Below are positions 5,796 to 27,654 of a stretch of DNA of 58,511 nucleotides, piece by piece; position 1 is the first letter of the stretch; every line of letters starts with the position of its first letter. The stretch is from the NCBI GenBank assembly GCA_009840945.1, contig VXMU01000129.1, positions 1-58,511 on the forward strand, given 5' to 3'. Origin of the DNA: Chloroflexota bacterium. GTDB lineage: Bacteria > Chloroflexota > Dehalococcoidia > UBA2979. The notes beneath the pieces are model-generated. The model did not search any database and had not been told where the DNA came from. It was given only the letters and a program-made list of their open reading frames with translations. A program made the translations under genes and the position numbers.

Positions 5796-5819
5796 TGCAA
5801 AGAGGCGGCAGTGCCGCCT
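5796..5819 (-). terminator. Probable terminator of selC
   Basis: Read on the minus strand, the tRNA 3' end runs directly into AGGCGG-CACTG-CCGCCT followed by CTTTGC. This is a 6-bp GC stem with a short T-containing tail. It touches the CCA end of the tRNA. Confidence 0.5.
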
Positions 5820-5915
5820 GGCGGGAGTGCGTGGGGGTCGAACCCACCCGGGACTGCGACGCAGCCCCACAACGGTTTTGAAGACCGCGGGCGCCACCGG
5901 ACACCATCCACTCCC
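5819..5915 (-). tRNA. selC: tRNA-Sec (selenocysteine, anticodon UCA)
   Basis: A 97-nt tRNA with all hallmarks of bacterial tRNA-Sec. Acceptor arm: GGGAGTG pairs with CACTCCC, with discriminator G and encoded CCA; the eighth acceptor pair is a G-G mismatch. D-arm: a long 6-bp stem GGUGUC/GGCGCC around a 4-nt loop. Anticodon arm: GCGGU-CUUCAAA-ACCGU carrying UCA. Variable arm: very long and paired, GGGGCUGC/GCAGUCCC. T-arm: GUGGG-UUCGACC-CCCAC. It decodes UGA as Sec when an mRNA carries a SECIS element. No selA, selB or selD lies in the window. It supports the UGA-containing FTR gene at 10074-10517. Confidence 0.95.
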
Positions 5916-9690: not shown

Positions 9691-10073
9691 GCTTGTGGGG
9701 GAGCAGCCCCGGCGAAGGGACACGCGGCGACCTCCGGTCCCCTCTCCCCCCGGCGGGGCGAGAGGGTGAGGGTGAGGGGGCCTGCGGGGTGCGACCAGCC
9801 CTCGAGGCGCCAGCCGGACTCTGATCCCGCGGGGGTCTGCGTGCACCGGGTACGTGTGGCGTATCGAGCAGCTCAGCCGGACCCTCACCCCCGCCCTCTC
9901 CCAGGGGGAGAGGGGGTCAGAGCGCCCCTTCGGGGCGGCAGAAGGAGCGGAGCGGGAGAGGGGGCCGCAGCGCCTCTTCGGGGCGGCGGACACCTCGCCC
10001 TGGCAGGGCCCCACGGGGGTGCGTGATACCCTGTCGCCATCAGCAGAGGTCACAACGGGCGGGAGCCAGACAC
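9691..10073. other. Non-coding region with repeat copies 3 and 4
   Basis: No gene is supported between the groEL terminator and the FTR gene. The region contains two repeat copies and a duplicated CCTTCGGGGCGGC-like segment (about 9922-9937 and 9973-9990). The upstream extension of the FTR frame to GTG 10023 is probably not translated. Confidence 0.5.
9738..9920. repeat. CCCTCACCC/GGGAGAGGG repeats, copies 3 and 4
   Basis: Copy 3 (about 9738-9780) reads CCCCTCTCCCCCC then GGGGCGAGAGGGTGAGGGTGA. Copy 4 (about 9879-9920) reads GGACCCTCACCCCCGCCCTC followed by a GGGGGAGAGGGGGTCAG return arm. They lie in opposite orientation, about 100 bp apart. Confidence 0.75.
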
Positions 10074-10517
10074 GTGGTCGAACAGCCCAGCGACGCCGAC
10101 CGGGCGGAGGCTTCCGAGAAGTCGATGGCCCGGATGTGGAAGTTCGTCGAGAACTTCGCCGAGAAGAGCGGCTCGTACCTGCACCCCCAGCGCGAGATCA
10201 CCGAGTTCCTCGTGATCGGCCTCGCCAAGCACGTCGACGACCTCGGCAGGCCGCTCTGTCCCTGCAACTTCTACGAGGACAAGCAGGAGGAGGTGAAGCG
10301 CTCGACGTGGATCTGCGCCTGCGAGGAGATGCAGAAGTATAAGTACTGCCACTGACTGCTCTTCTGTAATGAGGAAGGTCTTCCCATCACCGAGTACCTC
10401 CCAGAAGACCACGAAGGCCGCGAGATCTACGGCCTCGTGAAGGATCCGCACCCCGACAAGGGGCGCGCCCTCGCCCGCCTCGAGAAGAAGCAGGGCCGCA
10501 TCATCCGCAAGGACTGA
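10074..10517 (+). CDS. Selenoprotein ferredoxin-thioredoxin reductase catalytic (beta) subunit, UGA read as Sec
   Basis: Read through the TGA at 10353-10355, this is 147 residues of an FTR beta-type protein. FTR uses a [4Fe-4S] cluster next to a redox-active disulfide to reduce thioredoxin with ferredoxin electrons. The signature CPC-X16-CxC-X8-CHC is met exactly: Cys62/Cys64 (CPCNFYEDK), Cys81/Cys83 (WICACEEM), Cys92 then Sec94 (YCH-U-LLF). Known family roles put the last position in the active-site disulfide and four of the others on the cluster. The 53 codons after TGA keep family-like sequence (LPITEYLPEDHEGREIYGLV) to a TGA at 10515. The start is GTG 10074 after GGGAG; a GTG at 10023 is also in frame. 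A truncated gene is the alternative, but selC and the hairpin argue for Sec. Confidence 0.88.
10353..10390 (+). promoter_or_regulatory. Candidate bacterial SECIS element with UGA (Sec) codon
   Basis: Beginning 10 nt after the UGA, bases 10366-10390 fold into an imperfect hairpin. GGAA/UUCC is capped by the tetraloop GGUC (10377-10380), continued below by AUG/CAU and GU/AC with a bulged A (10372) and one A-C mismatch. The GGUC apical loop is the same as in the E. coli fdhF SECIS. The UGA-to-loop distance of 21 nt is within the usual bacterial range. This would be the SelB binding site. Confidence 0.72.
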
Positions 10518-11114: not shown

Positions 11115-11600
11115 GGCGCGGGCTGCCGGCCCGCCGCGGGCCGGGCGCACCCGCGGACCGGATCCCCTCACCCTAGCCCTCTCCCCAGGGAGAGGGGATC
11201 AGAATCCGGCCCCCTCTCCCCCTGGGAGAGGGTGGGGGTGAGGGTCCGGCTGGCGCTCGAACGGCTGCTCGCCCCGGCAGATCGGACCCCGATGTGCGCC
11301 ACAAATCCGATCACCGAACCGGTGAGACCCGGAGTCAGAATTGGATCTCTGACGTCGGCAAGCTGCGGTCTGGACCGGATCCTGTTGCCTCGTAGCGCCG
11401 AGAGGGTGCTCGGAGTCGCCAGGAGCGATACTCATAGCCGCTGCGTCCGCCCCCTGAGCATGCAGCGTCGTTAAACGGGCATGTTCGTGATGGGCCACGT
11501 CACCTCGGTTGTAGCTGCGAGTTTCTGGGTGCGTCGGCGCCAAGGGAGGGTTCGGCGGGCATCCGCTCTGGTTACGGAGCGACGAGGGTGCTCGCGTCGG
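11115..11600. other. Non-coding region, left flank of the accessory island
   Basis: No gene is supported. Two repeat copies sit at 11161-11202 and 11209-11250; the remaining sequence is less GC-rich. Base composition and codon use change from here rightward. Confidence 0.5.
11161..11250. repeat. CCCTCACCC/GGGAGAGGG repeats, copies 5 and 6
   Basis: Two copies back to back in opposite orientation. The first reads CCCCTCACCCTAGCCCTCTC with the return arm GGGAGAGGGGATCAG. The second reads CCCCCTCTCCCCCTGGGAGA then GGGTGGGGGTGAGGGTCC. Together they could form a large cruciform or strong bidirectional terminator. Confidence 0.75.
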
Positions 11601-11975
11601 CTAAGGGATAGCCTCGATAACGACCCTGCCTGCTTCTTTCGCAACGTCCACGTGAACAGCGTGCTCGGCGAGCATCGACATGCCGACCGCCGGCGTGCCT
11701 GATGTGATCTGAGCGACCACTTCTCGCGCCCGACCGTCCCACATCACTGTTGCTGTGCAGGTCTCGCGCGTCACCTCTGCACCATCCTGAAGGGTTGCCT
11801 GAGCCGGGGCGCCGGAGATCAGGTCGAGTTTCGCCACGAGATCCGGCGGCAACGTGAGGAATCCGCCGAAGCCGGTCACGATCACCGCATCCACGTAGGC
11901 AGTACGCCCCGTCGGGCCGAGGAGCTGCAGCCTGATAATGGCCTGCAGGGCCGCGTTGACGGTGCCCTCAATCAT
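11601..11975 (-). CDS. Clan AA aspartic protease-like protein (catalytic Asp replaced)
   Basis: A 124-residue retropepsin-fold protein. The order MIEGTVNAALQAIIRLQLLG, AYVDAVIVTGFGGFLTLPP and ATVMWDGRAREV closely follows bacterial clan AA aspartic proteases, where the flap and the hydrophobic GxLLG-type segment appear as VGMSMLAEHAVHVDV. The family motif is normally D-T-G-F; here it is V-T-G-F (about residue 33), so the catalytic Asp appears to be Val. It may be an inactive paralogue or a binding protein. The gene is isolated at the left edge of the island and faces away from the GTPase module. Confidence 0.72.
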   Translation of the reverse strand: MIEGTVNAALQAIIRLQLLGPTGRTAYVDAVIVTGFGGFLTLPPDLVAKLDLISGAPAQATLQDGAEVTRETCTATVMWDGRAREVVAQITSGTPAVGMSMLAEHAVHVDVAKEAGRVVIEAIP

Positions 11976-12165
11976 GGAAGCGGCCGATCATCTGCGCTTG
12001 GGATTCCCCCTGGGGCTTGAGCCTCAGATCGACGAACGATGGTGTTCCTCAACCGAGCGCGGCACAACTCGGAAGCGAGAACCACCGCAGCCGAAGCTGA
12101 CGGTGGTTCTCTGACGGAGTTCCTCCGCCGACTCACAGAGGCCCTCACCTTACACCTCCTCAGGA

Positions 12166-13113
12166 GTGGGCGGCCAGAGCCCGATCGGCCTCAGCGTAAG
12201 CGACGCTGGCTCGCGGCCCCGAGTAGTATCGAACGCGAGCACGCATGGAGGGGAAGACACTCGATCTACGATCGTCGAGTTGTTCGTGGAGGAAGGACCG
12301 GCTGCGGATACAGCAGCGCTCTGCGTAGCTACTGGTACGTACGGCGGTCGCGAGCCGGAAGCCACAGGGGGTCTAGCTTCGCTCGCGCACGAATATCTCA
12401 GCCGTCGAGCGGTGAGTATCCGGGCTCACGAGGAAACACGGCGTGCATCCACCGTTACTCCCGCCCAGACGGGTGTAGGAACCAAGCTGTCCAATCAGGT
12501 CAAGGAGGCACTCGATCAGGGTGACCCTATGGCAGCGGTCACAGCGCTGAACGACGCTGTTGCGAACCTTGCTACGCGCCTCGCGAACGTTGCTGCGGCC
12601 GACGCCAGTGCTCACAACCAACTAGTCCTGAGCCTTGCTGGGCTCTCGGAGGAGAACAACATTCTCTGGTGGGTCATCAGTAACTACTCGCGAGAGTTGG
12701 GTCGGCCGCGCGGCCAGGCGTCACCCAAAGAACTGGTCCTGCCTTCGGCATACGAGCTGGCGGGCCTTGTCACGCATGCCGTGCCGCCGAGGGTTTCGAT
12801 CGAGTACCTACGCCACGTGTCGTCGTCTACAGAAGGCGAAACGCCTTCGCAACTCACCGTCGCGGAAGCCCTGGAGGCAACCACCTCTGGCTGGCGAGAC
12901 TCGGCGACGGCAATCTCACCGGAAGAGGACCCGGACTACCTCTTCCCGGTACTCGTCGGCTTGCGACTCATGAGGGAGACGCCTGCAGGTGAGTGGGAGC
13001 AGGCACTTCTGGACCGGACCGGGCTCTCGACGGAGTTCGCTGACGCCCCGGAGAACGTGGGATTACAGTTCCTGCACGAACTCTTGCTCACCCGCTGCCT
13101 CGACGGGGCGTGA
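12166..13113 (+). CDS. GTPase-associated system helical (GASH) domain protein
   Basis: A 315-residue mostly helical protein. The C-terminal two thirds (from about residue 115: ALDQGDPMAAVTALNDAVAN, LSEENNILWWVISNYSRELG, LVLPSAYELAGLVTHAVPPR) resembles the GASH domain seen beside paired GTPases in predicted NTP-dependent conflict systems. The N-terminal 100 residues are less certain. GTG 12166 is the first possible start after an in-frame stop, with AGGAG immediately against it, so the true start could be further downstream. The DO-GTPase gene follows after 4 nt, supporting an operon. Role inferred: scaffold or adaptor of the GTPases. Confidence 0.62.
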   Translation: MGGQSPIGLSVSDAGSRPRVVSNASTHGGEDTRSTIVELFVEEGPAADTAALCVATGTYGGREPEATGGLASLAHEYLSRRAVSIRAHEETRRASTVTPAQTGVGTKLSNQVKEALDQGDPMAAVTALNDAVANLATRLANVAAADASAHNQLVLSLAGLSEENNILWWVISNYSRELGRPRGQASPKELVLPSAYELAGLVTHAVPPRVSIEYLRHVSSSTEGETPSQLTVAEALEATTSGWRDSATAISPEEDPDYLFPVLVGLRLMRETPAGEWEQALLDRTGLSTEFADAPENVGLQFLHELLLTRCLDGA

Positions 13114-13117
13114 CACC

Positions 13118-14014
13118 TTGAATCCGAATCCGAACGACACTGCGGCGGGCTTCGTTGCGTTACCGTCCGCGGGTGCACTGACGGTCGAGGAAGCGAACCA
13201 GACCGCCCGTTCCTCGGTAACGCGAGTGATTATCCCGGTGGGCCTCGCCGGCGTCGGGAAGACAACGTTACTTACGGAGCTATACGGAAAGTTCCTTCAG
13301 GGCCCGTTTGCTGGTCATCAATACGCTTGGTCCCGAACGCTTCACGGGTTCGAGCAGCGCTCGCATCACGCGCGGACAACCTCAGGCCGGGCGACCCCAG
13401 AGACACTTCGGACACCGCTCGCTGACCGCGACGTGTTCTTGCATCTCCGACTCGCGCCCGAAGAGGGCGCGGCGCCTGCACGAGACCTCTTGATCGCCGA
13501 TTGGCCAGGCGAGGAGTTTCGGGCGATGCGGGACGACGTACAGACAGCAAGAGCCCACCCGTTTCTCTACCGCGCTGACCACGTTGCCTTCCTTGTGGAC
13601 GGTGGGCGCTTCGGAACGCAGGCACTGCGACAAGAGGCTCGCCACGATACCGACATGTTGATCCAGAGCATTCTCGACGCTGGCGTCGATGGAGCCGTGA
13701 AGTCTGTCATCTACACGAAGTGGGACGCAGCGCTGAACGGAGACGGCGCCGACCAACTCGAGGACTTCGTCGAGGCGTTCGAGGGAGAGATCCGCCGCAA
13801 GCACGAGGCCCGCGCGGGTGAGCTTCAGTTCATTCGGACGGCGGCTCGTCCGGAGTCTGGCTCCGAGGTGTGCCGCGGGAAGAACCTGGATGAGGTCCTC
13901 CGGACTTGGCTTCGTTCCGCTCGCCGACCGCTCGAGGTGCCCGCATCCACCGGGGTCCAAACGACACGAGAGTTCGATCGCTTTCGATCTAGCTCGCCGC
14001 AGAGGGCCGACTGA
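13118..14014 (+). CDS. Double-GTPase system GTPase (first of pair)
   Basis: A TRAFAC-type P-loop GTPase of about 298 residues. It shows the Walker A motif GLAGVGKTTLLTELY, a segment GPFAGHQYAWSRTLHGFEQR conserved in the DO-GTPase family, a switch II equivalent LLIADWPGEEFRAMRDD (DxPG replacing DxxG) and a base-specificity motif IYTKWD (TKxD). The start is set at TTG 13118, 4 nt after the GASH gene; an earlier start would overlap that gene, and a later one is possible. It ends in a TGATG overlap with the second GTPase, so the two are translationally coupled. Family-level function is predicted only: GTP-dependent control of a conflict effector. Confidence 0.72.
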   Translation: MNPNPNDTAAGFVALPSAGALTVEEANQTARSSVTRVIIPVGLAGVGKTTLLTELYGKFLQGPFAGHQYAWSRTLHGFEQRSHHARTTSGRATPETLRTPLADRDVFLHLRLAPEEGAAPARDLLIADWPGEEFRAMRDDVQTARAHPFLYRADHVAFLVDGGRFGTQALRQEARHDTDMLIQSILDAGVDGAVKSVIYTKWDAALNGDGADQLEDFVEAFEGEIRRKHEARAGELQFIRTAARPESGSEVCRGKNLDEVLRTWLRSARRPLEVPASTGVQTTREFDRFRSSSPQRAD

Positions 14015-14874
14015 TGCACCAGGCGTTGCTCGTAGGTCTGCCGTCATCCGGCAAGACGACGTTCCTCGCAGCCTTGTGGCACGTCATCTTTGTCCGGGAT
14101 GTCGATGGTGCCCTTGAGCTAGAAGTTCTGCATGCGCCCTTCGACCACTTGAATGATCTGACCGGTCGCTGGCTACGGTTCGAGGTGGCCAACCGAACAA
14201 GCATCGACGCTGAGCAGACTGCCACGATCAGAATCAAGCCTGGTGACGGGGAATCCACCACCGAGATCGTCGTACCCGACCTCGCCGGCGAATCAATCAA
14301 GCGGAGCCTTGCGGATCGCCAATGGCCAACTGGTTTTCGGGACTACGTGCACGACTCCACGGGCGTGTTGCTCTTCGTTCACCCGAAGGAGACAAGCGAG
14401 CCATGGCCGATTCTCGACGCGATGGAGATCGCGGGCGAGGAAGCACTGCCATCTCAGGAATCTGGCGCGGCGGACGCGTCAACCGAGAGTGAATGGAGCG
14501 CCGAGCAAGTACCGACGGACGTGCAGCTCGTCGACCTACTCCAGCTTCTTTGCACGGAGATTGCGACGGGACACTTCAGGCTCGCCGTGATCGTATCTGC
14601 TTGGGATCTGGTGGAGGAGCAAGGCACCCCGTCAGAGTGGTTAGCCAAGGAGCTCCCACTGGTTGATCAATTCCTGAGAAGCCACGACCACTCGCGCTTT
14701 GATGTTCGCGTTTACGGAGTCTCCGCGCAGGGTGGTGAGCTCCCTCAGGAAAGCGATCGCCTCAAGTCCCTCCTCAGCGCTTCTGAGCGGATACGCGTCG
14801 TGCGCGACGCGAACGCAGAATCGCATGACATTACCGAGCCCCTCCGGTGGGTCGTCGATGTCGATACGGGGTGA
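14014..14874 (+). CDS. Double-GTPase system GTPase (second of pair)
   Basis: A 286-residue P-loop GTPase-like protein. The Walker A motif GLPSSGKTTFLAALWHVIF lies at the very N-terminus, VVPDLAGES serves as the DxxG-type switch II, and AVIVSAWDLVEEQ replaces the NKxD motif. A variable acidic insert (ALPSQESGAADASTESEW) lies in the middle. The ATG overlaps the stop of the preceding GTPase gene. It is distinct in sequence from that GTPase, so the pair is the dissimilar two-GTPase arrangement known from GAP1 loci rather than a tandem duplication. Confidence 0.72.
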   Translation: MHQALLVGLPSSGKTTFLAALWHVIFVRDVDGALELEVLHAPFDHLNDLTGRWLRFEVANRTSIDAEQTATIRIKPGDGESTTEIVVPDLAGESIKRSLADRQWPTGFRDYVHDSTGVLLFVHPKETSEPWPILDAMEIAGEEALPSQESGAADASTESEWSAEQVPTDVQLVDLLQLLCTEIATGHFRLAVIVSAWDLVEEQGTPSEWLAKELPLVDQFLRSHDHSRFDVRVYGVSAQGGELPQESDRLKSLLSASERIRVVRDANAESHDITEPLRWVVDVDTG

Positions 14875-14896
14875 TACCAGTCGCGGTGGCGAGGCG

Positions 14897-17044
14897 ATGC
14901 GAGTCGCTCAAGCCCTCCATGGGTACCGCAACGGGCACGACCTATTGGCGAGTTCCCGTCGGCTATCCAGGGAGGGGGAGCGAGCCCTCCTCGAGTTGTC
15001 TGATCTCTCCGGGTCGGCCGCTAGAACTCGCGGGTTCGAGAGCTACATATCGGGATACGCGGTGCCGGGCGAACGCCTCTACGCGTTTGCGCGGACGTGG
15101 TTGGCGGATGGAGACGCAAGGCCGGGTTCGGTGTGGACCCACACGCTGCTTCTGACACCTGAGCAGATGGCGCTGCCGAATGTAGCTAGTCTCGCCCAAT
15201 GGTTCCGTAGGCCGCAGTCCGTCGATCACGCGGTTGAGTACGCAAGCCCACTTGAGATCGATGAGCACAACATTGCTGAGCCTCCAAATGCGCCCAGATC
15301 GCCGCACCGCTCGACCGAAACCAGCATCCGTCTAGCCGATATCGTCGCGTCTCTGTACCAGAGCGATAGTGCGAATCACGCGATTCTTCTGCCGGCGGCA
15401 TCCGCCGCTGACTACGAAGAAGTCCTGCTTCATATCTGGTCCATTCAGTGGCCCGAGCTCCGCGAGCACTTCTCGTTCTGCACTGGAGCCCTATCCTTCC
15501 GTCAAGTCGCTGGCCGCCCCTTCGATCTACAGGTCATCCCTCAAGATCGCGCAACGACGATCGGGCGGGGCGCGGCTCAGGAAGTGCTCCTCTTGGGTGC
15601 CGAGCTCGGCGCTGACTCACTCTCGGCCACATGGGCCATGGGTCTTCGACCAGATGACGCTGCCTTGCGCGAGCTGAGAGCCTTCGTGTGGCAATTCGGG
15701 CCGCGGCTTGGGCCGGACCGATTGTCGTTCGGGCGTCTAGTACAACTTCACTCGATCGCTCGGGGAATGTCGGATCGCACGGATTGGCAGGCACTTCTGG
15801 AGAGCATCGGTGCCTGGTACCCGCAACTGTCGAGTGCTCAGGCATTGAAGTCATGGGCACTCGACGAATCCGGACCGAGGCCTACCGAACCGCTCACGAG
15901 TCTGGATCGGCTGTCAGTCCTGTCGCGCTCGGCCGCCGGCTCTGCCTTCCCAGGATGGTGGCACTCGTTGAGCAACTCGTTCCTGCAAGCATTATCAGCT
16001 GATGAGCCGGGGTTCGGGGTATTCCTGCGGGAGTTTCCCGCCTTCGCGACCGCGGATGCGCGCGCAGCCCTCGTGCGGCTCGCGGCCGACGATCTCGAGG
16101 CCGAGGCGTTCGTTCAGCTCATTGGGTGGTGGCCGGATGCGGTCACGTCGAGCGCATTCGACCTCAGGCCTTCCATTGTCATGGACCCGGTACTCTGGGA
16201 ATCGAAAGGCGCTAGGCCCCGTGCACTTACGTGGCTCGCCGGAGCTGACCTAGACGACTCTTTGGTCGCCGAGATAGTACGCGCTGTAATCGCCGCGGGG
16301 CCGTCCGTTGCCTTGACTGACCTTGCTGACGGATTGGGTAGCCGTGCGATCGAAGCTGCCTTCGACGTGCTCGGCGAGAGTTCGGATCAGGAGGAGGTTC
16401 TGCCAGCTAGGCCCGAATGGGCGGCGACTCTACGCTCACATGCGAAGGAAGGTGTTTCGTGGCTCGGCAGGACCGAGAGGCCGTCTACAGCCCTCGCAAA
16501 GCTCGTCCTCGACCAATTCCAGCCGGGGGACCGTCGGCTCCGCGTTCTCGAGAACAAGCGTTGGAGCGAGATCGCAAGGGTTGATCCCTCCACCACTGCA
16601 GGAACCTCGGTTCGTGCGTTCGCACTCGGTGTTGGGCTCCGCGATGACCGCGCGTCCGCGAGTTCCCTCGTGGCCCAAGTCTTTCAGACCGTCTACGACT
16701 CCGCTGAGGCCGGTCGCCTCAGTGATGATGACTGGAACAAGCTGACACGTGCCTTCCCGAAGCCGCCACGGTCACTGCGGAGGCTCATCCGTCGCGGTGG
16801 GGTCGGAAGGGGGCAGATCCTGAGAAGAGCACTCGTCGAGGCATTCGGACAGCGGGATTGGCCCGTCGCCGATTTTCTCGAAGCCGTCAGCGACACCTCC
16901 ATGCTGGCTCGCATGGTTACTGAGAATGTCCGAACCAAGTCGGGTAGGAAGCTAGGTCGGCGACTCAACGCCGCCATTCAGGGGGGCGATCTGCTCCTCA
17001 GCGATCCACAACGCAGCGCGCTGGGGACCTGGATAGACGACTAG
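14897..17044 (+). CDS. GTPase-associated protein 1 (GAP1)-like protein
   Basis: A large protein of about 715 residues starting MRVAQALHGYRNGHDLLASS, the N-terminal signature of GAP1-type proteins. Next come GYAVPGERLYAFARTWLADG and RPGSVWTHTLLL. The middle and C-terminal parts are largely helical (FLREFPAFATADARAALVRL; DFLEAVSDTSMLARMV). I chose ATG 14897 because the conserved motif begins there; ATG 14858 and starts inside the previous gene are alternatives. No catalytic motif is visible. It follows the two GTPases by 22 nt. In known loci GAP1 accompanies them as a predicted sensor or platform; the effector is not identified. Confidence 0.75.
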   Translation: MRVAQALHGYRNGHDLLASSRRLSREGERALLELSDLSGSAARTRGFESYISGYAVPGERLYAFARTWLADGDARPGSVWTHTLLLTPEQMALPNVASLAQWFRRPQSVDHAVEYASPLEIDEHNIAEPPNAPRSPHRSTETSIRLADIVASLYQSDSANHAILLPAASAADYEEVLLHIWSIQWPELREHFSFCTGALSFRQVAGRPFDLQVIPQDRATTIGRGAAQEVLLLGAELGADSLSATWAMGLRPDDAALRELRAFVWQFGPRLGPDRLSFGRLVQLHSIARGMSDRTDWQALLESIGAWYPQLSSAQALKSWALDESGPRPTEPLTSLDRLSVLSRSAAGSAFPGWWHSLSNSFLQALSADEPGFGVFLREFPAFATADARAALVRLAADDLEAEAFVQLIGWWPDAVTSSAFDLRPSIVMDPVLWESKGARPRALTWLAGADLDDSLVAEIVRAVIAAGPSVALTDLADGLGSRAIEAAFDVLGESSDQEEVLPARPEWAATLRSHAKEGVSWLGRTERPSTALAKLVLDQFQPGDRRLRVLENKRWSEIARVDPSTTAGTSVRAFALGVGLRDDRASASSLVAQVFQTVYDSAEAGRLSDDDWNKLTRAFPKPPRSLRRLIRRGGVGRGQILRRALVEAFGQRDWPVADFLEAVSDTSMLARMVTENVRTKSGRKLGRRLNAAIQGGDLLLSDPQRSALGTWIDD

Positions 17045-17196
17045 GCGCCAGCGGGCAGCTGCGGACTTTGCACGCGACGTTCGAGCTCCTACTGCTCGGC
17101 CATCAGCCCCCCAGCGGAGTCGCCGGACTTGGTGACTGCGCCATCTCACAAAGCTGCCCTAGCGGCGGCCACGATCGGTTGCGCGTGTGGAGCCGT

Positions 17197-17202
17197 TACA
17201 AT
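17197..17202 (+). promoter_or_regulatory. Possible -10 box giving a leaderless mRNA
   Basis: TACAAT ends 6 nt before the ATG at 17209, so transcription would begin at the A of the start codon. No ribosome binding site precedes the ATG, which fits leaderless expression. No good -35 box is seen. Confidence 0.35.
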
Positions 17203-17208
17203 CTCCCT

Positions 17209-17739
17209 ATGGACTCACCCCTGCACATCGAGCGCGTCTTACTCGTGGCAGGCGGCCGGGGCAGCGGGAAGAGTACCCAGCTAAGAGCGATGTTCCTTGA
17301 CCCGCGACTGGGCTACGACGGTCAGATTCCAACGATCCGGAGGCCTCGCGAGAGATACAGGTTGTCGCCTGACAGGCAGCTCTACGTTCGGTTCAGCTCT
17401 CCGCACGAGAGCAATGCGACACTGGAAGAGTTCCTCAACAAGATAGAGACGAAGTCCGTCTCCGGACGCTGGTGCTTTGCAGGTGCCGTTCAGATCGAGT
17501 CCACAAACAGGGTGCCGGACCTTCGCGACGTGGTCGACGCCATCGTCCAGAGATTCTCGCCCGAGCGCATTCGGATCGCCCTTCTCTCGCCGGATCGCCG
17601 GGGTCGGCAGCTGGCCGACGCGAATGACCACTTGGAGAACCTGCGCGAAGCGGCGCCAGTCGTCGAGGTCATGTCCATCGATGCCCGAACCCGCGAAGGG
17701 AATGGCTTGCTCCTCGCGGACACCTTCGACTTCGCCTGA
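17209..17739 (+). CDS. Small P-loop NTPase of unknown function
   Basis: A 176-residue protein with an N-terminal Walker A motif LLVAGGRGSGKSTQLRAMF. A Walker B-like region may be RIRIALLSPDRRG, near residue 120, but no canonical hhhhDE is evident. The ATG at 17209 is preferred over earlier in-frame starts because the preceding 47 codons look non-coding and a TACAAT box sits just before it. It lies in the same direction as GAP1 but after a 164-bp gap, so it may have its own promoter. Its role with the GTPase module is inferred from position only. Confidence 0.6.
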   Translation: MDSPLHIERVLLVAGGRGSGKSTQLRAMFLDPRLGYDGQIPTIRRPRERYRLSPDRQLYVRFSSPHESNATLEEFLNKIETKSVSGRWCFAGAVQIESTNRVPDLRDVVDAIVQRFSPERIRIALLSPDRRGRQLADANDHLENLREAAPVVEVMSIDARTREGNGLLLADTFDFA

Positions 17740-18202
17740 AACGAGAGGGAGTGCCGCGCCGAATGGCCAGCCTCCCTTCAACGGGCAGCCCGCCACCAGC
17801 AGCGGTGGCGTAGCGTGAAGTCCATAGCTCGCGCGCGTGCAGATATCGTCCGACCCAAAAACCTGCCGGGGTGACCCCGCCCGTCTTGCCGGCGGACAAC
17901 ATCTAAGTGGGATGCTGCCCCGATTTCGTGGGAGCATGCCCGTGGGTCGGCGAGCCAGCGACGACCAGGCCTGTCCCTACGCGTCGGCCGACCCGTGGAG
18001 CGCCCCGGCGCGCAGCCTCATCTCGCCTAATCATCCCTGCATCCCCAGGTCGACACTCCCGCTCGGCTCGTATTCCTGATGTTGTAAGCTCGTATTCCGA
18101 ACGTTGTAGGGTTCTACGGAGTTCTGTGGAACGGGCAGCCCGGATAGTCGGACCGCGGTGGATCCGCGCAGGGACGCACGCCGAGCTCGAGAGTACCGCC
18201 AG
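17740..18202. other. Non-coding region between P-loop gene and DUF4928 gene
   Basis: No gene is supported. The notable element is a 22-bp tandem repeat at 18066-18109. Weak AT-richer patches near 18078-18115 could hold the promoter of the DUF4928 gene. Confidence 0.45.
18066..18109. repeat. 22-bp direct repeat (two units)
   Basis: Two adjacent 22-bp units share GCTCGTATTCC at the left and GTTGTA at the right, differing in the four bases between and the last base. They lie about 95 bp upstream of the DUF4928 start, so they may bind a regulator. Confidence 0.6.
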
Positions 18203-19054
18203 ATGAATGAGCAGCCGACCGATCTAGTCGAGCACTGGCACGAGGCTGAGGCTGCGCGAGGGACGTCGCCCAAAGGCGTCCCGAATACCGGCCTGCACGT
18301 CCTGGAGATCTTCCGAGAGCAATGGCCGCTTGACGAGAGACATTACCTGACGGAGGGCGGCGGGCAGGTCAAAGGGCTGAGTGGTCATTCGGGCGACATC
18401 ATCATTCGCCGGTACGCGCCCAACTTCAGGTCGATCGGAACCGAGGCAGGGAGGACGAGCAGGTCCACCCCTGGGGCCGCGCAGCGCCTCGCCGCAAGGT
18501 TGAACGAACTTCCGGCGACGATCGGTAACGATCGCGGACAGCGAGCCGATCGTGCGGATCGCATGCAGCGCTGGATCGTGAATGAAGTGCTGGCCCGCGT
18601 ACTCGCTCCCAGAGGACCGGCCATCGAGATCCTCGACGGTGAGCCGCTCGAGCGTGCGTTGAACCGGCATCTGGATGACGCCGCGGGCGATATCACCTGG
18701 GTTCGAGCCGCCGAGAGGCTGCTCGCCGCAACCATAGACGTAGTGACCAGGGATGCCGACGTTCCGCACGGCGACCAACTGCGTCTTGGTGATACGGCGT
18801 TGGTACTGTCGGAATTGCCGACTATGGCCGATGTCGAGACGTGCGCTGCGGCCGTCGCGGACCAGATGCGGTGCCTGCTCCTCACGCCCAACGCGCGGGT
18901 ACTGGCCTCAGCTCAGTTGCTGGAGGCAAACGAACTCGATGCCGTTGAGGTTGAGAGCGCGTCGCGCTTCGTTGCCCGGCTGATCGACATCCCAGGCCGC
19001 TTTGAGCCCGTCCGCCGCGATGAAATGATTCACACACTCAACGAGCGACTCTAA
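18203..19054 (+). CDS. DUF4928 family protein (restriction-modification associated)
   Basis: A 283-residue protein (298 from GTG 18158). The segment LTEGGGQVKGLSGHSGDI, followed by SIGTEAGRTSRSTPGAA and RLAARLNELP, matches DUF4928, a family usually encoded next to 5-methylcytosine methyltransferases and suspected to contain the restriction endonuclease. No classical PD-(D/E)XK motif is obvious by eye. It is convergent with the minus-strand RM operon, and its TAA overlaps the TAG of the DUF3883 gene. It was probably acquired with that operon. Confidence 0.7.
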   Translation: MNEQPTDLVEHWHEAEAARGTSPKGVPNTGLHVLEIFREQWPLDERHYLTEGGGQVKGLSGHSGDIIIRRYAPNFRSIGTEAGRTSRSTPGAAQRLAARLNELPATIGNDRGQRADRADRMQRWIVNEVLARVLAPRGPAIEILDGEPLERALNRHLDDAAGDITWVRAAERLLAATIDVVTRDADVPHGDQLRLGDTALVLSELPTMADVETCAAAVADQMRCLLLTPNARVLASAQLLEANELDAVEVESASRFVARLIDIPGRFEPVRRDEMIHTLNERL

Positions 19055-19977
19055 CCATCAGCGAGTGCATCGGCGGGATCAAGCGGCAGCCCAGGCCGCA
19101 GTTCAGAGGCGTCGATGCGGATCTTCGTTACTTGCCATTCCGCCGACAGAACGACATCGACGGGCATCCTAGGAATCAATGGAGTCAGCGTAGTCCAGCC
19201 AACAACCTCGGGTGCTGAGTCTCCCGTCGATCGACACAACACCAGGTACCACCGCGGCCGCCTCGATCCAACCTCGAACTCGTTTCGAGTTAGATAGACG
19301 GTCGGGTCACGCCCTCGATAGCACTTCACCTCGAGCCGGCACAACTCCCCCGCCAAATTGGGAGACGAGATGTCCCACCCCATGGCGTCCGAGATCAAAC
19401 TGACCCGTCGCGCTTTGCGCGCAAGATCGGGGCGGCCTCGTGCTTCGAGAAAGTCCCGGCAAGCTGACAGGACGACGTCCTCGCCGGCCTCCCCGAGCTC
19501 ACGGAGCGCCTCAGCGTCGTACTTTGACGCAGCGGCCAGTAAGATCGCGTCGCGTTCATCGTCATCGAACATCTCTTCGAAGAGGGCCGACGCGTCCTCC
19601 GGTAGGAACTCCTCTCGCACCTCACCGCGTGCGGTCGAGGCGCTCAGCCAAGCGGGCAAGGAGTCAAGGATCATCGCGCGTACCAGTTCGCGGGCGACCT
19701 CGGTTTCGTCGTCGTCAGGGAGTGCGAGGCTCCGCGCTGTGGCGCCGAGGGTGGTACCTTCGCGCGTCAGCCACCCTTGTTCCGCAAGCCACTGCTGGGC
19801 GACCAGCAGGCCCTTCGACGAGAGGAACCCTCCAGACGGCGTTGCTCGGTACGAGGCAAGGAGCTCCGAGTCGGCATGACGACCACGGCCCACGATGCGC
19901 AGCACGCGCGCCGCCGACCGCAAGAGGTACGACCCTGGAAGGCTCTCGGGCCGCGCGCCGCCACCGTCATCCGGCAA
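19051..19977 (-). CDS. DUF3883 domain protein, putative PD-(D/E)XK nuclease
   Basis: A 308-residue protein and last gene of the minus-strand operon. The C-terminal part holds the DUF3883-type nuclease core: MGWDISSPN (Asp), then RLEVKCYRGRDPTVYLTRNE with the E-x-K pair, then RRPRWYLVLC. The N-terminal 150 residues contain a winged-helix-like segment (GGFLSSKGLLVAQQWLAEQG, LTREGTTLGATARSLAL). It overlaps the helicase gene by 11 nt at its start, so translation is likely coupled. A DNA-cleaving effector role with the helicase is inferred. Confidence 0.72.
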   Translation of the reverse strand: MPDDGGGARPESLPGSYLLRSAARVLRIVGRGRHADSELLASYRATPSGGFLSSKGLLVAQQWLAEQGWLTREGTTLGATARSLALPDDDETEVARELVRAMILDSLPAWLSASTARGEVREEFLPEDASALFEEMFDDDERDAILLAAASKYDAEALRELGEAGEDVVLSACRDFLEARGRPDLARKARRVSLISDAMGWDISSPNLAGELCRLEVKCYRGRDPTVYLTRNEFEVGSRRPRWYLVLCRSTGDSAPEVVGWTTLTPLIPRMPVDVVLSAEWQVTKIRIDASELRPGLPLDPADALADG

Positions 19978-21805
19978 GATGCCTGGCTACCTCCGCGAGG
20001 TCGCCCTGATCGACACCGAAGTCGGCCTCGCCCTCAAGGCCCTCCTCGGGCGTCGCGGGAAGCGACATCACTGTGAGCCCAGGGTCGTGCAGCAGCTCGC
20101 CCAAGCGCTCGGTCTTCTCGCGGAGGCGCGACTCGACGACTTCATCGATGGTCTCGGGACTGCCGAGGATCGTCACTCTAGTCTCCGTCTCGGGATCCAG
20201 GCCGAGCCGGTGGATCCTGTCGACGCTCTGCAGGTAGTGTCCGGCGTTGAAGGTCCGCTCCAGGTAGATGGCGTCGTGGCACGCGTGGTGCAGGCTCACT
20301 CCCTCCCCGAGCGCCGCGGGGTTCGCCAGCAGCACGTGGCAATCCGGATCAGAACGGAACCGCCTCAACTGATCCGCGCGATCGTGAACTCCGCCATGAA
20401 CCAGCGCAGGCGAGTAGTCCGTCAGCTCGTGGCGATACAGCGTTTCGAGGTTTCTGACGAAGTTCGACCACACGAGGGTCTTCCTCCCGGCACGGACGTT
20501 CTCCTCGATCGCCGCCTTCAGGAACTCGAACTTCCACGGCGTCTCGTAGTTCGGATACGCTCGCAGGAGGCCGTCGAGGTCGGTGTCAGGCGGCACATCC
20601 AACGGCGGGTGCCGAAAGAGCACGGGATCGTGGGGGTGACTTCCCGCGATCAACAGGCTGGGGTTCGTCGCTGCCTCCAACAGGTACATCGTGATGCGCC
20701 CGAACGCCCGCAAATCGATGCGCGCGCGGCGGGATGCGTCGAACAGCCCCCCGTACCGCCCCACGATCGCTCCGTATATCTCTGCGTGGAGCGGATGGAG
20801 ATCCCGGTGCTCCGTGCGGATAAGAGGTTCTGGAAGGTCTAGTTCAACCTTGGTCGTCCGAACGAACAGAGGTGCGATTCGACGTGACACCTCCCGAATG
20901 CCATCCTCGTCTCGGGCATCGCGTGGTATCAGTTGACGCGCGCTTCCCGGCCACACGAAGTCGAAGAGCGCATCAAGGTCGAATACTGACTGCGGGGCGG
21001 GCGTCCCGGTCAGGATGTCGCGACGCACGGCCAGATTGGCCAGGTTCAAGCAGTTCCGGCCCCACTCTCCAGCCCACCCGCGCTTCATGCGATGGGCCTC
21101 GTCGAGGATCATGTGCGTCTTCCTGGCCGCCACCCACTCCGCGAGTTCATCGAATCCGGACTCGAGCCGCTGGTAGTTGACCAGGAGAACCTCGGCGGGA
21201 GGAACGACGCCTCCCGTAAACCGCACCACAGCCGGGACCGGATCGAAGGAGGACTCCGCCTCGTCCTCCCAGGACTCGAACGCCGCGAGTGGCGCCACCA
21301 CGAGGAGTCGCTCAACGCGAGCTGCCCGACGTTCAGCCTCGTACGCTCCGTAGGCGACGCTCGTCTTCCCGGCTCCTGGAACCGAGAAGTTGGCACCGTT
21401 AGCGAGCGCGAGCAGCTTGCCGAGGTCGCGGATCTGGAACGGCCGCAAGGCACGCACGAAGCGACTACCTTCAAGTGCCTCAGCGACGGCGGCCCCGTCC
21501 AGGGGTGGCGGAGACTCCAGCGCCACACTGAAGCGCTCCGAGTCCGCGAGACGGCGCCGCACCAAGTCGAGTGCATCGCCCTTCCACTCGACACCCACTT
21601 CGTACTCGCGGAAGTACTCTGCCACCCAATTCAGGTGGGCCAGGAACTCGCTGATCGGAACGTTGACGCGCGTCCGCGGTGAGCGTCCCTTCGTGCCCCA
21701 CTCCGTCTGAACCCTGAGCCACACAAGCTCCGGTACGCCCGGGCCGCGCGAGACGACGACATCGGTCGTCCCTGCTCTGTGGTCTATCGAAACAACGCTA
21801 CGCAT
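19967..21805 (-). CDS. SNF2/DEAD-like helicase of the RM cluster
   Basis: A 612-residue superfamily 2 ATPase. Motifs: a Q-like region LRPFQIRDLGKLLAL (120-134), Walker A SVPGAGKTSVAYGA (141-154), motif Ia LLVVAPLAAFESWEDE, the DEAH box ILDEAHRMKRG (233-243), motif III ILTGTPAPQS, motif V NPAALGEGVSLHHAC and motif VI QSVDRIHRLGL. This is SNF2-like organisation (GTPxxN-like GTPAPQ, DRIHR-G). It probably translocates on DNA for the nuclease encoded downstream. It overlaps the upstream ParB-like gene by 8 nt and the downstream DUF3883 gene by 11 nt. Confidence 0.85.
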   Translation of the reverse strand: MRSVVSIDHRAGTTDVVVSRGPGVPELVWLRVQTEWGTKGRSPRTRVNVPISEFLAHLNWVAEYFREYEVGVEWKGDALDLVRRRLADSERFSVALESPPPLDGAAVAEALEGSRFVRALRPFQIRDLGKLLALANGANFSVPGAGKTSVAYGAYEAERRAARVERLLVVAPLAAFESWEDEAESSFDPVPAVVRFTGGVVPPAEVLLVNYQRLESGFDELAEWVAARKTHMILDEAHRMKRGWAGEWGRNCLNLANLAVRRDILTGTPAPQSVFDLDALFDFVWPGSARQLIPRDARDEDGIREVSRRIAPLFVRTTKVELDLPEPLIRTEHRDLHPLHAEIYGAIVGRYGGLFDASRRARIDLRAFGRITMYLLEAATNPSLLIAGSHPHDPVLFRHPPLDVPPDTDLDGLLRAYPNYETPWKFEFLKAAIEENVRAGRKTLVWSNFVRNLETLYRHELTDYSPALVHGGVHDRADQLRRFRSDPDCHVLLANPAALGEGVSLHHACHDAIYLERTFNAGHYLQSVDRIHRLGLDPETETRVTILGSPETIDEVVESRLREKTERLGELLHDPGLTVMSLPATPEEGLEGEADFGVDQGDLAEVARHLAG

Positions 21806-22748
21806 CGACCTTGTTCGCTTCGGCCAGCAGATTCACTTCCTTCCGGAGATCTCCGACCGCGTGGTCGAGAGCCCCGTGGTCGAAACCCGGACCCTGCTGT
21901 GCGGTCGGAAGGGCGTCGCGCGCGCGGGCCACCTTCTGCTGCGCTTGCTTGACGAGCCGCAGCGGCGTGGACTGCCGCTGCTGGTCCTTCCTGTGCTCCT
22001 CGCTGTCCTGCGACGCCTGCGTGATCCGTTCCTTGATCTCCTCGTACAGTTGCGCCTTCGTCAGACCGCCACCGGCCGGCGCGTCCGGATCCGCACCGTA
22101 GAGTTCGGCGACTCTCACAAGGAGGCGCTTGGGATCGATGGTGGTCGCGTCCGTACCACCCAACCCATCGAGGATCGCGAGCCCGTCGTCGATGTCGCCG
22201 TCGCTGGAACCACTGCCATTCGTAGCGCCGCCGCCGACCAGCGGCAGGAGGTGGTCGTCATCATCGAACAGCGGCTCGACGTACTCGGTGAGAAACTCGT
22301 TTGTGTCCCAGCGTCGCAGGTTTCGGTAAGTGACGCCCACCAATACTCCAGCGATACGCCCGTCGCGGACGCGCCGTGCCTGTTCCGGGTCGTTCCGCCG
22401 GATCTTCACCAACACACCTGCATGCGTGACGATTCCGAACTCAAGCTGCCCACTCTCGCGGAGATTGTCGGCGAGTACTCCAAAGCCGGGCGTCTCAGTG
22501 AGGATCTCCCCGATAATCGTCTGTGCGTGCTCCGAGTAGGGAGCATCCCTCAGCACGGCCGCATCGGCGTGAGACTCGATGTGGGCTCGAATCCGATGGC
22601 TCGAGGGATTCAGCAGGACGCTGTCCAAGGACAGTGTGATGGCGGGCAGCGGCTCTGAAGCATTCTGCCAGACTACCGAGTAGGTCTCAGTCGCAGCTTT
22701 CGACTTCGCCGCGATTTCGGCGATCCGCGCTTCCTCGGTCGGCGGCAT
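21798..22748 (-). CDS. Unknown protein with possible ParB-like N-terminal domain
   Basis: 316 residues, not confidently recognised. The N-terminal part (ITLSLDSVLLNPSSHRIRAH, then GVLADNLRESGQLEFGIVTH, then GVLVKIRRND) follows the order of ParB/sulfiredoxin-like domains, with the usual GNTR-like motif degenerate. The C-terminal part is a linker rich in Gly and Asp (GGGATNGSGSSDGDIDDG), a LTKAQLYEEIKERI helix and a charged coiled-coil-like tail. Its position between vsr and the helicase, with 8-nt overlap, ties it to the RM operon. It may specify DNA site recognition. Confidence 0.6.
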   Translation of the reverse strand: MPPTEEARIAEIAAKSKAATETYSVVWQNASEPLPAITLSLDSVLLNPSSHRIRAHIESHADAAVLRDAPYSEHAQTIIGEILTETPGFGVLADNLRESGQLEFGIVTHAGVLVKIRRNDPEQARRVRDGRIAGVLVGVTYRNLRRWDTNEFLTEYVEPLFDDDDHLLPLVGGGATNGSGSSDGDIDDGLAILDGLGGTDATTIDPKRLLVRVAELYGADPDAPAGGGLTKAQLYEEIKERITQASQDSEEHRKDQQRQSTPLRLVKQAQQKVARARDALPTAQQGPGFDHGALDHAVGDLRKEVNLLAEANKVDA

Positions 22749-22784
22749 TGTGCGCTCCTCCGCGGCTCTGTTCTGGGGGTCATC

Positions 22785-23228
22785 TCATGATAGACGGCCC
22801 CTCGCCGTTGGCGAGCTGCCCGATCGCCGACTCTCGAGCGCTTCGAGGAGTCTCTCGGTACCTGTCGCGAGATCGCACTCCCAGATCTCGACCACCCACC
22901 AGCCGTCCTTCGTCAGCGCCTCCGCCGCCGCACGATCGCGGTCTCGGGTTCGCTGGATCTTGGCCCGCCAGTACTCGGCGTTGGTGGCAGGCAGGCGGTC
23001 GCCGCGACGGCAGTCATGGCCGTGCCAGAAGCACCCGTGCACCTGCACCACTGCGCGGTACCTCGAAAGGACGATATCGGGGTGTCCGGGCAGGTCCCTG
23101 CGATGGAGCCGATAACGATAGCCGGCGGCGTGCAGTGCACGCCTGACTAGCAACTCCGGCCCGGTGTCACGTGAACGCACGCGGGCCATGATCCGACTAC
23201 GCGCGGCCGGGTCGACGGTGTCAGCCAC
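22785..23228 (-). CDS. vsr: Very short patch repair endonuclease Vsr
   Basis: A 147-residue Vsr. It nicks 5' of the T in T:G mismatches formed when 5-methylcytosine deaminates, protecting sites modified by the neighbouring methyltransferase. Conserved parts: RSRIMARVRSRDTGPELLVR (11-30), LPGHPDIVLSRYRAVVQVHG (46-65) with Asp51 and His64, CFWHGHDC (66-73) with His69 and zinc-type Cys, and the C-terminal GWWVVEIWECDL. It lies 120 bp downstream of the dcm-like gene. Confidence 0.93.
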   Translation of the reverse strand: MADTVDPAARSRIMARVRSRDTGPELLVRRALHAAGYRYRLHRRDLPGHPDIVLSRYRAVVQVHGCFWHGHDCRRGDRLPATNAEYWRAKIQRTRDRDRAAAEALTKDGWWVVEIWECDLATGTERLLEALESRRSGSSPTARGRLS

Positions 23229-23348
23229 TCTCCCTCACCTCGAACCGGGAGGCCGCCGTCTCAAAACGATGCTCGCACATCAGCACTCCGGCTTCGCCAT
23301 CACCGGCGCCAGGGTAGCGTTCGGCCGTGTGGCTCATGCCGCGATCGA

Positions 23349-24467
23349 TTAGGCAGGCGACTCGACCATCGGATTCAGGCACTCGCGAATGATCCACTCC
23401 ACGGCTGGGACGCAGACCGCGTCGCCAAACCCCGAGAGGGCCTGATTATCGGAAACGGACTCCGGCACTTGGAAGTCCGCGGCACCCTGCAAGCGAGCAT
23501 ACTCGAGCGGGGTCATCCACCGTACCCTCACGTCGCCGCGATATGCCTCAACGAGCGCCTGCTTGCTGGACCCACCGCCCGAGGTTCTGAGACAGCCAGC
23601 GATCGCGTCCGCCCTTATCTCCCATACGGCGCGCCTGTTCCGCGTCCGGCGGTAGGCGGTGGCCCACGAGGTCGACCGGCCGCCGGCCATTCGCGTCAGG
23701 CGCTCGCGATGCCGTTCCGCCAAGGAGGCCACGAACTTGCGCACCCTCTCGGCACCCCACCACCGCTCGTCGTTCTCCGCAAGGCGTTCGACGACATCCT
23801 TCAGCGATGCTTGCGCGTTCGGCGGCACCGGACAGGACAATGGATCGAGACCCAAGTCAGCGTTTGCTTCGATGAATCGCATCAGCGGCGGCGGTCGAAG
23901 CAGTGATTCGTCCCACCCCGCTCCGTGACCCGCACCGCCGCCGGCTCGACCAACGATGAAGAGGCGTCTACGGCTCTGCGGTACGTGCCACCTTGCGTCG
24001 GTGATGAGCAGGTCGCAGCCGTACCCGAGGTCGCGAAGGCGGGCGAGTGCGGCACGCAAGTCGGCACCTTGCCCCGACGTGAGGAAACTAGGAACGTTCT
24101 CGATGAGAACGAAGCGTGGGCGGCGAGCACCCATCTCCTCCAGGACTCGAGCGAACTCCCAGAACAAGCCCGAGTGCTCTCCACCTAGCCCGCGACGCTT
24201 GCCGGCCAGGGAGAGATCCACGCACGGGAACGAAGCCGTCGCAAGGTCCACATCGGGGATGTCGGCGCCGCTGACCTGCCGCACGTCCCGGAGATCGAAA
24301 TCGGTACCCCGGAAGTTGGCGCAGTACATATCCCGTTTGAACGCCTTGATGTCATTGGCGTAGCGAACGCTCCAGCCAGCGCGTTCGAGCGCCATCCTGA
24401 CGAGTCCGATGCCAGCGAAGAACTCAGCTGCGGTCCCGACGTTGCCACGCCTCAGGCCATCGTGCAT
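23349..24467 (-). CDS. dcm: DNA (cytosine-5-)-methyltransferase
   Basis: A 372-residue C5 methyltransferase. Motif I is AAEFFAGIGLVRMALERAGW (13-32), motif IV is ASFPCVDLSLAGKRRG with the catalytic Cys82, motif VI is IENVPSFL, motif VIII is VPQSRRRLFIVG, and motif X is near ALSGFGDAVCVPAVEWII. It has one target-recognition region, so it probably modifies a short palindrome that cannot be named from the sequence. It heads the minus-strand operon with vsr, the ParB-like gene, the helicase and the DUF3883 nuclease. It is divergent from the HTH/STAS-like regulator. Confidence 0.95.
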   Translation of the reverse strand: MHDGLRRGNVGTAAEFFAGIGLVRMALERAGWSVRYANDIKAFKRDMYCANFRGTDFDLRDVRQVSGADIPDVDLATASFPCVDLSLAGKRRGLGGEHSGLFWEFARVLEEMGARRPRFVLIENVPSFLTSGQGADLRAALARLRDLGYGCDLLITDARWHVPQSRRRLFIVGRAGGGAGHGAGWDESLLRPPPLMRFIEANADLGLDPLSCPVPPNAQASLKDVVERLAENDERWWGAERVRKFVASLAERHRERLTRMAGGRSTSWATAYRRTRNRRAVWEIRADAIAGCLRTSGGGSSKQALVEAYRGDVRVRWMTPLEYARLQGAADFQVPESVSDNQALSGFGDAVCVPAVEWIIRECLNPMVESPA

Positions 24468-24671
24468 AACGTCCGACCTAACTGATCATTTAGGCGCCCG
24501 CTTTACTGGTTTATCTTATCACGTACGTGCCTGCGGTTGCGACTCATGCGGCGGCCAAGCCCCTCCGACAAACGGCGGAACTCTTGGATCCTCTAGGTCC
24601 GAATGCCCGACCGTCGTGAGACGTCTCCTCTCGCAGACGCGGCATGAGTGGTTGGCGCTGTATACACGGCG

Positions 24672-24677
24672 TACACT
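24672..24677 (+). promoter_or_regulatory. Possible -10 box and operator upstream of the HTH/STAS gene
   Basis: TACACT ends 7 nt before ATG 24685, suggesting a leaderless transcript as at 17209. It lies in the imperfect inverted repeat TGTATACACGGCGTACA (24661 area), which could be an autoregulatory operator. Confidence 0.35.
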
Positions 24678-24684
24678 CCACCAC

Positions 24685-25254
24685 ATGGGAGTGACACCTC
24701 AGGAAGTACCCGGTGCAGCGCGCCCTCGAGGCGCGTGGTTGCGCCAACTCAGGGTCTCGATGGAGATGACTCAACGCGACCTCGCCGGCGAGCTCGGCGT
24801 TTCCACCAACACTGTCGCTCGATGGGAACGCAACGAGGTCGAGATGCGGCACCCGCAGATGCTGCGCCTCGCGCTCGATGCGGTCCGTCATAAACGGGGG
24901 CAGCGGAAGCTGTCCGCGGATGATCACATCGCGACGCGTTCGCCGACTCACCAGACCGCTGCCCCCGAATCGGGCGCGGGCACCCTCTTCAGGCTCGCCG
25001 AGCGCGGCGCGACGTTCGCAACTCGCGAGAGAGCCGAAGCCCTGGCATCGGGCATTCCGGAGGGGGATGTCACCATCGACTTCAGCGGCGTGAAGGCAGC
25101 AAGCCCTTCGTTCTTGGACGGGTTGATCGGTGTGCTGTCAGAGCGCACCGCCTCGACGGCGCTGACCGGCCTGACGGTCGAGATGGAACAGCTCGCGGGC
25201 CTGATCGTCGCTCGACGTGGCGTCGGTGGCCGATTCAGGCTGCCAGCGGCGTGA
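24685..25254 (+). CDS. HTH regulator with STAS-like (DUF4325) domain
   Basis: A 189-residue two-domain protein. The N-terminal XRE-type HTH is MEMTQRDLAGELGVSTNTVA plus RWERNEVEMRHPQMLRLAL. After a linker, the C-terminal domain reads RGATFATRERAEALASGIPE, VTIDFSGVKAASPSFLDGLI, the pattern of the STAS-like DUF4325 family (DFSGV..xSxSFxDxL). The frame extends upstream over the dcm start but is non-coding there; ATG 24685 precedes the conserved domain. Divergent from dcm with a 217-bp intergenic region, it is placed like a controller protein of an RM system. Confidence 0.78.
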   Translation: MGVTPQEVPGAARPRGAWLRQLRVSMEMTQRDLAGELGVSTNTVARWERNEVEMRHPQMLRLALDAVRHKRGQRKLSADDHIATRSPTHQTAAPESGAGTLFRLAERGATFATRERAEALASGIPEGDVTIDFSGVKAASPSFLDGLIGVLSERTASTALTGLTVEMEQLAGLIVARRGVGGRFRLPAA

Positions 25255-27120: not shown

Positions 27121-27128
27121 CTCACATC

Positions 27129-27327: not shown

Positions 27328-27654
27328 TTAGGCGAGCGCCTCGTCCAGGCGCTTGGAGAGGTCACCCTTGGGGCGGAAGCCGATGATCTCGCCGACCTTC
27401 TCGCCGTCCTTGAAGACCAGCAGCGTCGGGATCGAGCGGATGCCGTACTGGCCCGCGACCATCGGGTTCTCGTCGGTGTTGAGCTTCACGAACTTGACGC
27501 GGCCGTCGTAGTCCTCGGCGAGCTCCTCGACGATGGGGGCGACCATGCGGCAGGGGCCGCACCAGGGCGCCCAGAAGTCGACCAGGACCGGGGTGTCGTG
27601 ATCCAGTACGTCGCCGGAGAAGGTGGCGTCGGAGGTGTTGGTCGGTGCTGCCAT
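27328..27654 (-). CDS. trxA: Thioredoxin
   Basis: A 108-residue thioredoxin with the redox motif WCGPC (residues 31-35) in [20 protein letters not shown], the buried acidic residue region, cis-Pro in [16 protein letters not shown], and a helical C-terminus. The ATG is chosen because AAAGGAAT lies just upstream; the longer open frame is non-coding. It is a general cytoplasmic disulfide reductase and a plausible partner of the FTR-like selenoprotein encoded 17 kb to the left, but nothing in the sequence proves the pairing. Confidence 0.97.

Follow-up and report, generated by a model that had tools for sequence, protein, structure and literature searches.

The window, 58,511 nt of a contig from a genome of the Dehalococcoidia, contains a gene that very probably encodes a stand-alone catalytic chain of ferredoxin-thioredoxin reductase (FTR), in which a UGA codon is decoded as selenocysteine (Sec) in place of the cluster-facing redox cysteine and which would follow a cycle like that of the plant FTR. 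FTR is the textbook converter of single electrons into a thiol signal via cluster-bound sulfur. The selenoprotein form has been barely documented and is common in a large lineage known mostly from metagenome-assembled genomes (MAGs), where a standard-code list of open reading frames truncates it at the TGA. The Sec clade and its Cys relatives, 81–82% identical to one of its members, constitute matched natural pairs for the study of selenium beside an iron–sulfur cluster.

The catalytic chain and its active site

The read-through frame starts with a GTG at 10074, chosen by eye, and continues to a TGA at 10515–10517, with a single inner TGA. The gene and the codons of its active site are as follows.

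10074..10517, plus strand, ftrB-like FTR catalytic chain, Sec-containing; 147 residues before the final stop (PF02943 and fold)
10257..10265, plus strand, CPC codons (Cys62 and Cys64), aligned with 1dj7_A 55 and 57
10353..10355, plus strand, the inner TGA, predicted codon of Sec94, aligned with 1dj7_A position 87
10365..10367, plus strand, codon of Cys98, four residues past Sec94

The read-through product scores 81.7 bits with PF02943, against a gathering cut-off of 22 bits, and is assigned to the family on that score; the standard-code reading frame (10023–10355), which ends at the inner TGA, scores 67.5 bits. The motif of the window FTR is CPC-X16-CAC-X8-CHU, and is followed by 53 codons. 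In a phmmer alignment with the cyanobacterial chain 1dj7_A, residues 14–100 align with 7–93 with no gaps, and Cys62, Cys64, Cys81, Cys83, Cys92 and the TGA correspond to positions 55, 57, 74, 76, 85 and 87 respectively. All six FTR motif positions are aligned in this way, the sixth being a predicted Sec in place of Cys. The initial annotation had placed the TGA at the last Cys of a CHC motif with 53 further codons leading to a second TGA, and the frame, the family score and the alignment with 1dj7_A all agree with this. Positions 57 and 87 of 1dj7_A are taken here to be the redox pair of FTR, with 87 as the neighbour of the cluster iron, and the remaining four (55, 74, 76 and 85) to be the cluster ligands. 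Cys64 is presumably the partner of Sec94.

An AlphaFold model of the window FTR, with the TGA entered as Cys, has a mean pLDDT of 90.3. Its best Foldseek matches are 7c3f, 7bzk and 1dj7 (E 4.6e-7 to 1.1e-6), comprising FTR–thioredoxin complexes together with 1dj7 itself. By analogy with these, the gene would encode an FTR catalytic chain that carries a predicted [4Fe-4S] cluster and performs ferredoxin-linked disulfide reduction.

Thioredoxin neighbourhood and proposed cycle

The likely substrate is encoded in the window, on the far side of an inserted island.

27328..27654, minus strand, thioredoxin (WCGPC), likely substrate; PF00085 113.1 bits and synteny
11115-27327, between the FTR and OmdA genes and the thioredoxin gene, inserted island, missing at this place in L097

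L097 is the nearest named record, 97% identical to the window gene and with the TGA identical in place. Its gene order is FTR, an OmdA-like gene, thioredoxin, a metal-sensitive repressor and a PlsX-type gene, while in the window some 16 kb of other genes separate the OmdA-like gene from the thioredoxin. The island includes domains of GTPase-associated systems (GASH, two double-GTPases and GAP1-N1). It also encodes Vsr and a DNA cytosine methylase, an SNF2-like helicase and a transposase-like gene with an rve domain, and shows a weak match to type II restriction. GC-rich repeats CCCTCTCCC...GGGAGAGGG flank the FTR gene at window positions 9720–10000 and 11160–11240.

A WCGPC thioredoxin lies within 3 kb of the FTR in 16 of the 29 named Sec loci of the clade (among the best 80 of 152 named records). 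In 15 of these 16 it is on the opposite strand, so the association is one of synteny and not an operon. No thioredoxin was found within 3 kb at any of the other 51 named loci, which are 50 Cys forms, mostly from other lineages, and a record from an Anaerolineae MAG (L130). Thioredoxin reductases of TIGR01292 adjoin the FTR gene in L105 and L107, so that another thioredoxin reductase exists in those two. The genome from which the window comes (92.5% complete) gave no match to the FTR variable chain FtrA (PF02941), and the window FTR is therefore not the plant heterodimer.

The same lack of a PF02941 subunit would also fit a Sec enzyme of the FTR fold that acts on a substrate other than thioredoxin, such as glutaredoxin, peroxiredoxin or a small disulfide, or that draws on a donor other than ferredoxin. 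FTR-fold enzymes fused to rubredoxin or glutaredoxin do exist, and 13 of the 29 named Sec loci show no thioredoxin within 3 kb, some of these loci being cut short by contig ends. However, thioredoxin is the commonest redox neighbour found, and complexes of FTR with thioredoxin are the best matches to the fold, so a different substrate or donor is rather unlikely.

In the FTR cycle, as described in the accessible part of an earlier account, one active-site sulfur attacks thioredoxin while the other serves as a fifth ligand of a cluster iron (PMC3838966). By analogy, the second active-site atom would be selenium in the window FTR. What the analysis shows directly is the sequence, the conserved hairpin, the genes of the Sec machinery, the match in fold and the synteny; the presence of Sec in the product, the cluster, the donor, the substrate and the Se–Fe bond are inferred. 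With thioredoxin as substrate, the resting enzyme would contain an Se–S bond between Sec94 and Cys64. Reduction of the cluster by a one-electron donor of low potential, probably ferredoxin, would open the Se–S bond. Cys64 would then attack the disulfide of thioredoxin, with the selenolate of Sec94 kept at a cluster iron meanwhile, and a second electron would lead to the release of reduced thioredoxin. The gain from selenium may be an easier opening and closing of the bond beside the cluster.

Reading of the inner TGA

Homologues were collected from 44 genomes of the window's family, 37 of which gave a match, and from 393 genomes of its class, 166 of which gave a match, with the 37 of the family included. 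From these 79 loci were read, the window's own among them; the other matching loci are chiefly fragments and more divergent forms. The codon at the Sec column is TGA in 65 loci, TGC in 13 and TGT in one. The 65 TGA loci are spread over 63 genomes, of which 33 belong to the window's family and 30 to five further families of its class. Of these loci, 64 cover the CPC region and have the motif CPC, CxC, CxU, any second TGA in them being the final stop; the remaining one is a fragment with a later start. The 14 Cys loci have CPC, CxC, CxC. A second, overlapping set comprises the best 80 of 152 named records, and here the column is TGA in 30, TGC in 43 and TGT in seven. Twenty-nine of these TGA records, those in the clade, are MAGs labelled Chloroflexi, Chloroflexota or Dehalococcoidia; a species name is given for three, two being Dehalococcoides mccartyi and one Thermoflexus hugenholtzii. 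L130 is the thirtieth.

A Cys located four residues after the Sec, in the sequence LLFC, is found in 62 of the 65 Sec forms, and Val occupies that position in all 14 Cys forms of the first set. Cys is also found there in three Cys database proteins. The idea that Cys98 is a strict partner of Sec was dismissed, with three of 65 Sec loci lacking it and three Cys proteins having it. It arose about once, together with the clade, and so provides no independent correlation with Sec.

A predicted hairpin follows the TGA.

10369..10387, plus strand, predicted SECIS hairpin; core GGAA[GGUC]UUCC at 10373-10384, with a gap of 21 nt from TGA to loop

It lies just past the UGA and has G in its apical loop, as looked for in a selenoprotein gene. 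The sequence GAA-GGT-CTT occupies nucleotides 19–27 past the TGA (codons +7, +8 and +9) in all 65 Sec forms, and among the 62 codon columns whose residue is conserved these three alone lack synonymous variation in the Sec forms. At these codons the 14 Cys forms of the first set have GGT in none, CTT in none and GAA in five. In the named set (best 80 of 152), 29 of the 30 TGA records carry GAA-GGT-CTT, while the 50 Cys forms have GGT in six, CTT in one and all three codons in none. For comparison, a count over 14 window genes gives GGT for 19 of 428 Gly codons, CTT for four of 370 Leu codons and GAA for 28 of 363 Glu codons. The TGA in 65 of 79 loci and the three synonymous codons fixed in all 65 together confirm, at the level of sequence comparison, that the inner TGA is real, and more than chance or one sequencing error; the codon recurs in many separate assemblies.

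The closing pair of the hairpin is G–C in GAG..CCC (40 loci) and GCG..CCC (3 loci), and C–G in xCG..CCG (22 loci). Placed at columns 19/33, 99.6% of cells pair and both sides are changed in 19 of 50 distinct rows, a double-sided change exceeding that in all 500 shuffles, which do not keep relatedness. Placed at columns 20/33, 88.0% of cells pair with no covariation. The calculated fold energy of the window hairpin is no better than that of shuffled sequences (z −0.10; −1.47 and −2.02 for other members), folding of the 48 nt from the TGA selects another hairpin (z −0.17), and the best RNAalifold consensus is a different structure, without double-sided change. In view of the energy and RNAalifold results, the assignment rests not on energy but on the invariant synonymous codons and the 19/33 closing pair. 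On this basis the conserved GGAA[GGUC]UUCC hairpin is predicted to be a SECIS element, whose GGUC loop would be bound by SelB.

The window also carries a gene for tRNA-Sec.

5823..5915, minus strand, tRNA-Sec with anticodon TCA; RF01852 73.7 bits (5819-5915 by ARAGORN)

This gene is 4.2 kb upstream of the FTR gene, and the genes in between include groES- and groEL-like ones, identified by eye. The machinery is present as a whole, with SelA, SelB, SelD and tRNA-Sec all found in the genome, and the SelD gene has a single inner TGA of its own, in CGGUAGK. Decoding of the UGA would thus depend upon SelB, the tRNA-Sec of the window and the GGUC-loop hairpin past the UGA. SelA (E ≤ 0.001) was found in 60 of 63 Sec genomes against 18 of 34 Cys-only genomes tested. 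In the window's family the counts are 31 of 33 Sec and none of four Cys-only genomes. Elsewhere in the class SelA was found in 29 of 30 genomes with a Sec form and in 18 of 30 with a Cys form, these last 30 being drawn from the 99 other genomes that gave a match. Some of the SelA matches are fragments, and that of one genome (G201) is under the cut-off. SelA is usual with the Sec forms, yet also common without them.

If the UGA were a real stop, as in the standard-code list of reading frames, which ends there, the product would be a protein of 93 residues terminating in CH and the remainder would be a decaying or accidental frame. Such a protein would be truncated without the sixth motif position, whereas the codons downstream carry the fixed hairpin sequence and are under purifying selection, with dN < dS past the TGA in 12 of 12 pairs (dN 0 to 0.045; dS 0.13 to 0.99). 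This makes termination very improbable. Insertion of tryptophan or some other residue at the UGA, through an altered code or a suppressor, is scarcely credible: Trp does stand at the Sec column in two of 120 listed database proteins (P0046 and P0111), but P0046 sits within the Sec clade and has the LLFC signature, so that its Trp more likely reflects mistranslation of a TGA during gene calling, and the genome has tRNA-Sec, SelA, SelB and SelD while the FTR gene has TGA as its own final stop. In both Trp entries, gene calling may have rendered a UGA as Trp.

Sec at the cluster-adjacent redox position of the window FTR, as the initial annotation proposed, is strongly supported by the TGA in 65 of 79 loci, the hairpin codons and the sel genes. 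None of the three outcomes that it named as refuting was seen: close homologues continue past the codon and do not all end there, many separate assemblies have TGA and not TGC or TGT, and the genome has selA, selB and selD as well as tRNA-Sec. A selenolate beside the cluster may also alter the two-step reduction of thioredoxin, as that annotation suggested.

Alternation of Sec and Cys, and relation to known systems

A first tree of 75 loci, with four fragments omitted, has two Sec changes, with a single change in 44% of bootstraps. On addition of 23 database proteins the Sec rows and P0046 form one clade (90/95). With four further Cys proteins (P0039, P0042, P0052 and P0057) and removal of 11 near-copies there are three changes in the tree, and these four proteins nest with the Sec forms L080 and L082 in a starred clade (100/98). 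The best identities to L080 are 81% for P0039 and 82% for P0057. We read the nested Cys forms as probable reversions from Sec to Cys; repeated gain of Sec might also account for them. The initial annotation had proposed aligning homologues in search of such alternation, and with TGA, TGC and TGT all at this column Sec and Cys do alternate among close relatives, within a supported clade.

Inner TGA codons also occur in other FTRs. In L130 the TGA (L130:3247-3249) is at the same column on a Cys-type background, in one assembly, and its nearest kin are Cys proteins (best identity 87%). It lacks the GAA-GGT-CTT codons, and another hairpin is predicted to be able to form there. If real, this TGA would have a separate origin. 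TGA also occupies this column in three FTRs of the window's class that end in a rubredoxin-like part and belong to three families (L187, L188 and L189 in genomes G093, G209 and G150); they read CYU, where their kin have CYC or CFC. The rubredoxin domain was scanned in L188, and the ends of L187 and L189 were judged by eye. A hairpin with a GGUC loop is likewise predicted for L188. G150 has in addition a second FTR copy without an inner stop. Finally, L177 (G406), from one assembly, is a fusion of FTR with glutaredoxin in which TGA takes the place of the second CPC cysteine, which is the other redox position.

In a tree of 31 chosen rows the supported branches force at least three Sec/Cys changes, a count that does not separate gains from losses; separate gains of Sec in these FTRs appear the likeliest reading. 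No TGA was found at a cluster-ligand position in the loci read (the first set and the best 80 of 152 named records). There is about an even chance that selenium has come repeatedly to the cluster-binding residue of FTR, in a clade spread through part of the Dehalococcoidia, separately in Anaerolineae and in the rubredoxin fusions, that it is selected only at the two redox positions and never at the four ligands, and that an Se–Fe bond is made in each turnover. If so, a selenolate–iron bond would form on a [4Fe-4S] cluster at every turn of the enzyme.

No paper on Sec-FTR in Dehalococcoidia, or on such an enzyme, was found in the open-licence literature, and PMC12013277 nowhere mentions ferredoxin, FTR, thioredoxin reductase or Chloroflexi. 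The initial annotation was right to be cautious about earlier bioinformatic reports. A selenoprotein survey of the Global Ocean Sampling data in 2008 is reportedly the work of Zhang and Gladyshev. According to the accessible text, Sec-FTR was represented in that survey by two sequences, one with two Sec (PMC2398784), and it is given with a CxU motif in the available parts of reviews of 2022 and 2026 (PMC9312934, PMC13188914). As far as their accessible descriptions go, the Global Ocean Sampling Sec-FTR and the NCBIfam family NF041072 (FtrB double-selenoprotein) are likewise FTR catalytic chains with Sec at a redox-active Cys; the described read and NF041072 have two Sec, whereas the window FTR has one and keeps the Cys of CPC. 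With one inner TGA and a score of 38.4 against a cut-off of 160 bits, it falls outside the double-Sec family, and none of 400 genomes of the phylum reached that cut-off.

The plant and cyanobacterial catalytic chains (1dj7, 2pu9 and 7bzk) share with the window FTR the fold and the six gapless motif positions, but the window FTR has Sec for Cys87, no variable chain was found in its genome, and its last 47 residues do not align to 1dj7. The ferredoxin-dependent disulfide reductase of Methanosarcina acetivorans (4tpu, where the molecule is named rubredoxin) is a weaker match in fold and sequence. Unlike enzymes of that type the window FTR has no rubredoxin domain, and it is 21–30% identical to the fusions L187–L189. 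Sec-FTR as such is already known; what is new is the one-Sec form in many Dehalococcoidia-like genomes, its hairpin and its recurrence, together with an FTR–glutaredoxin fusion having TGA at the other redox Cys.
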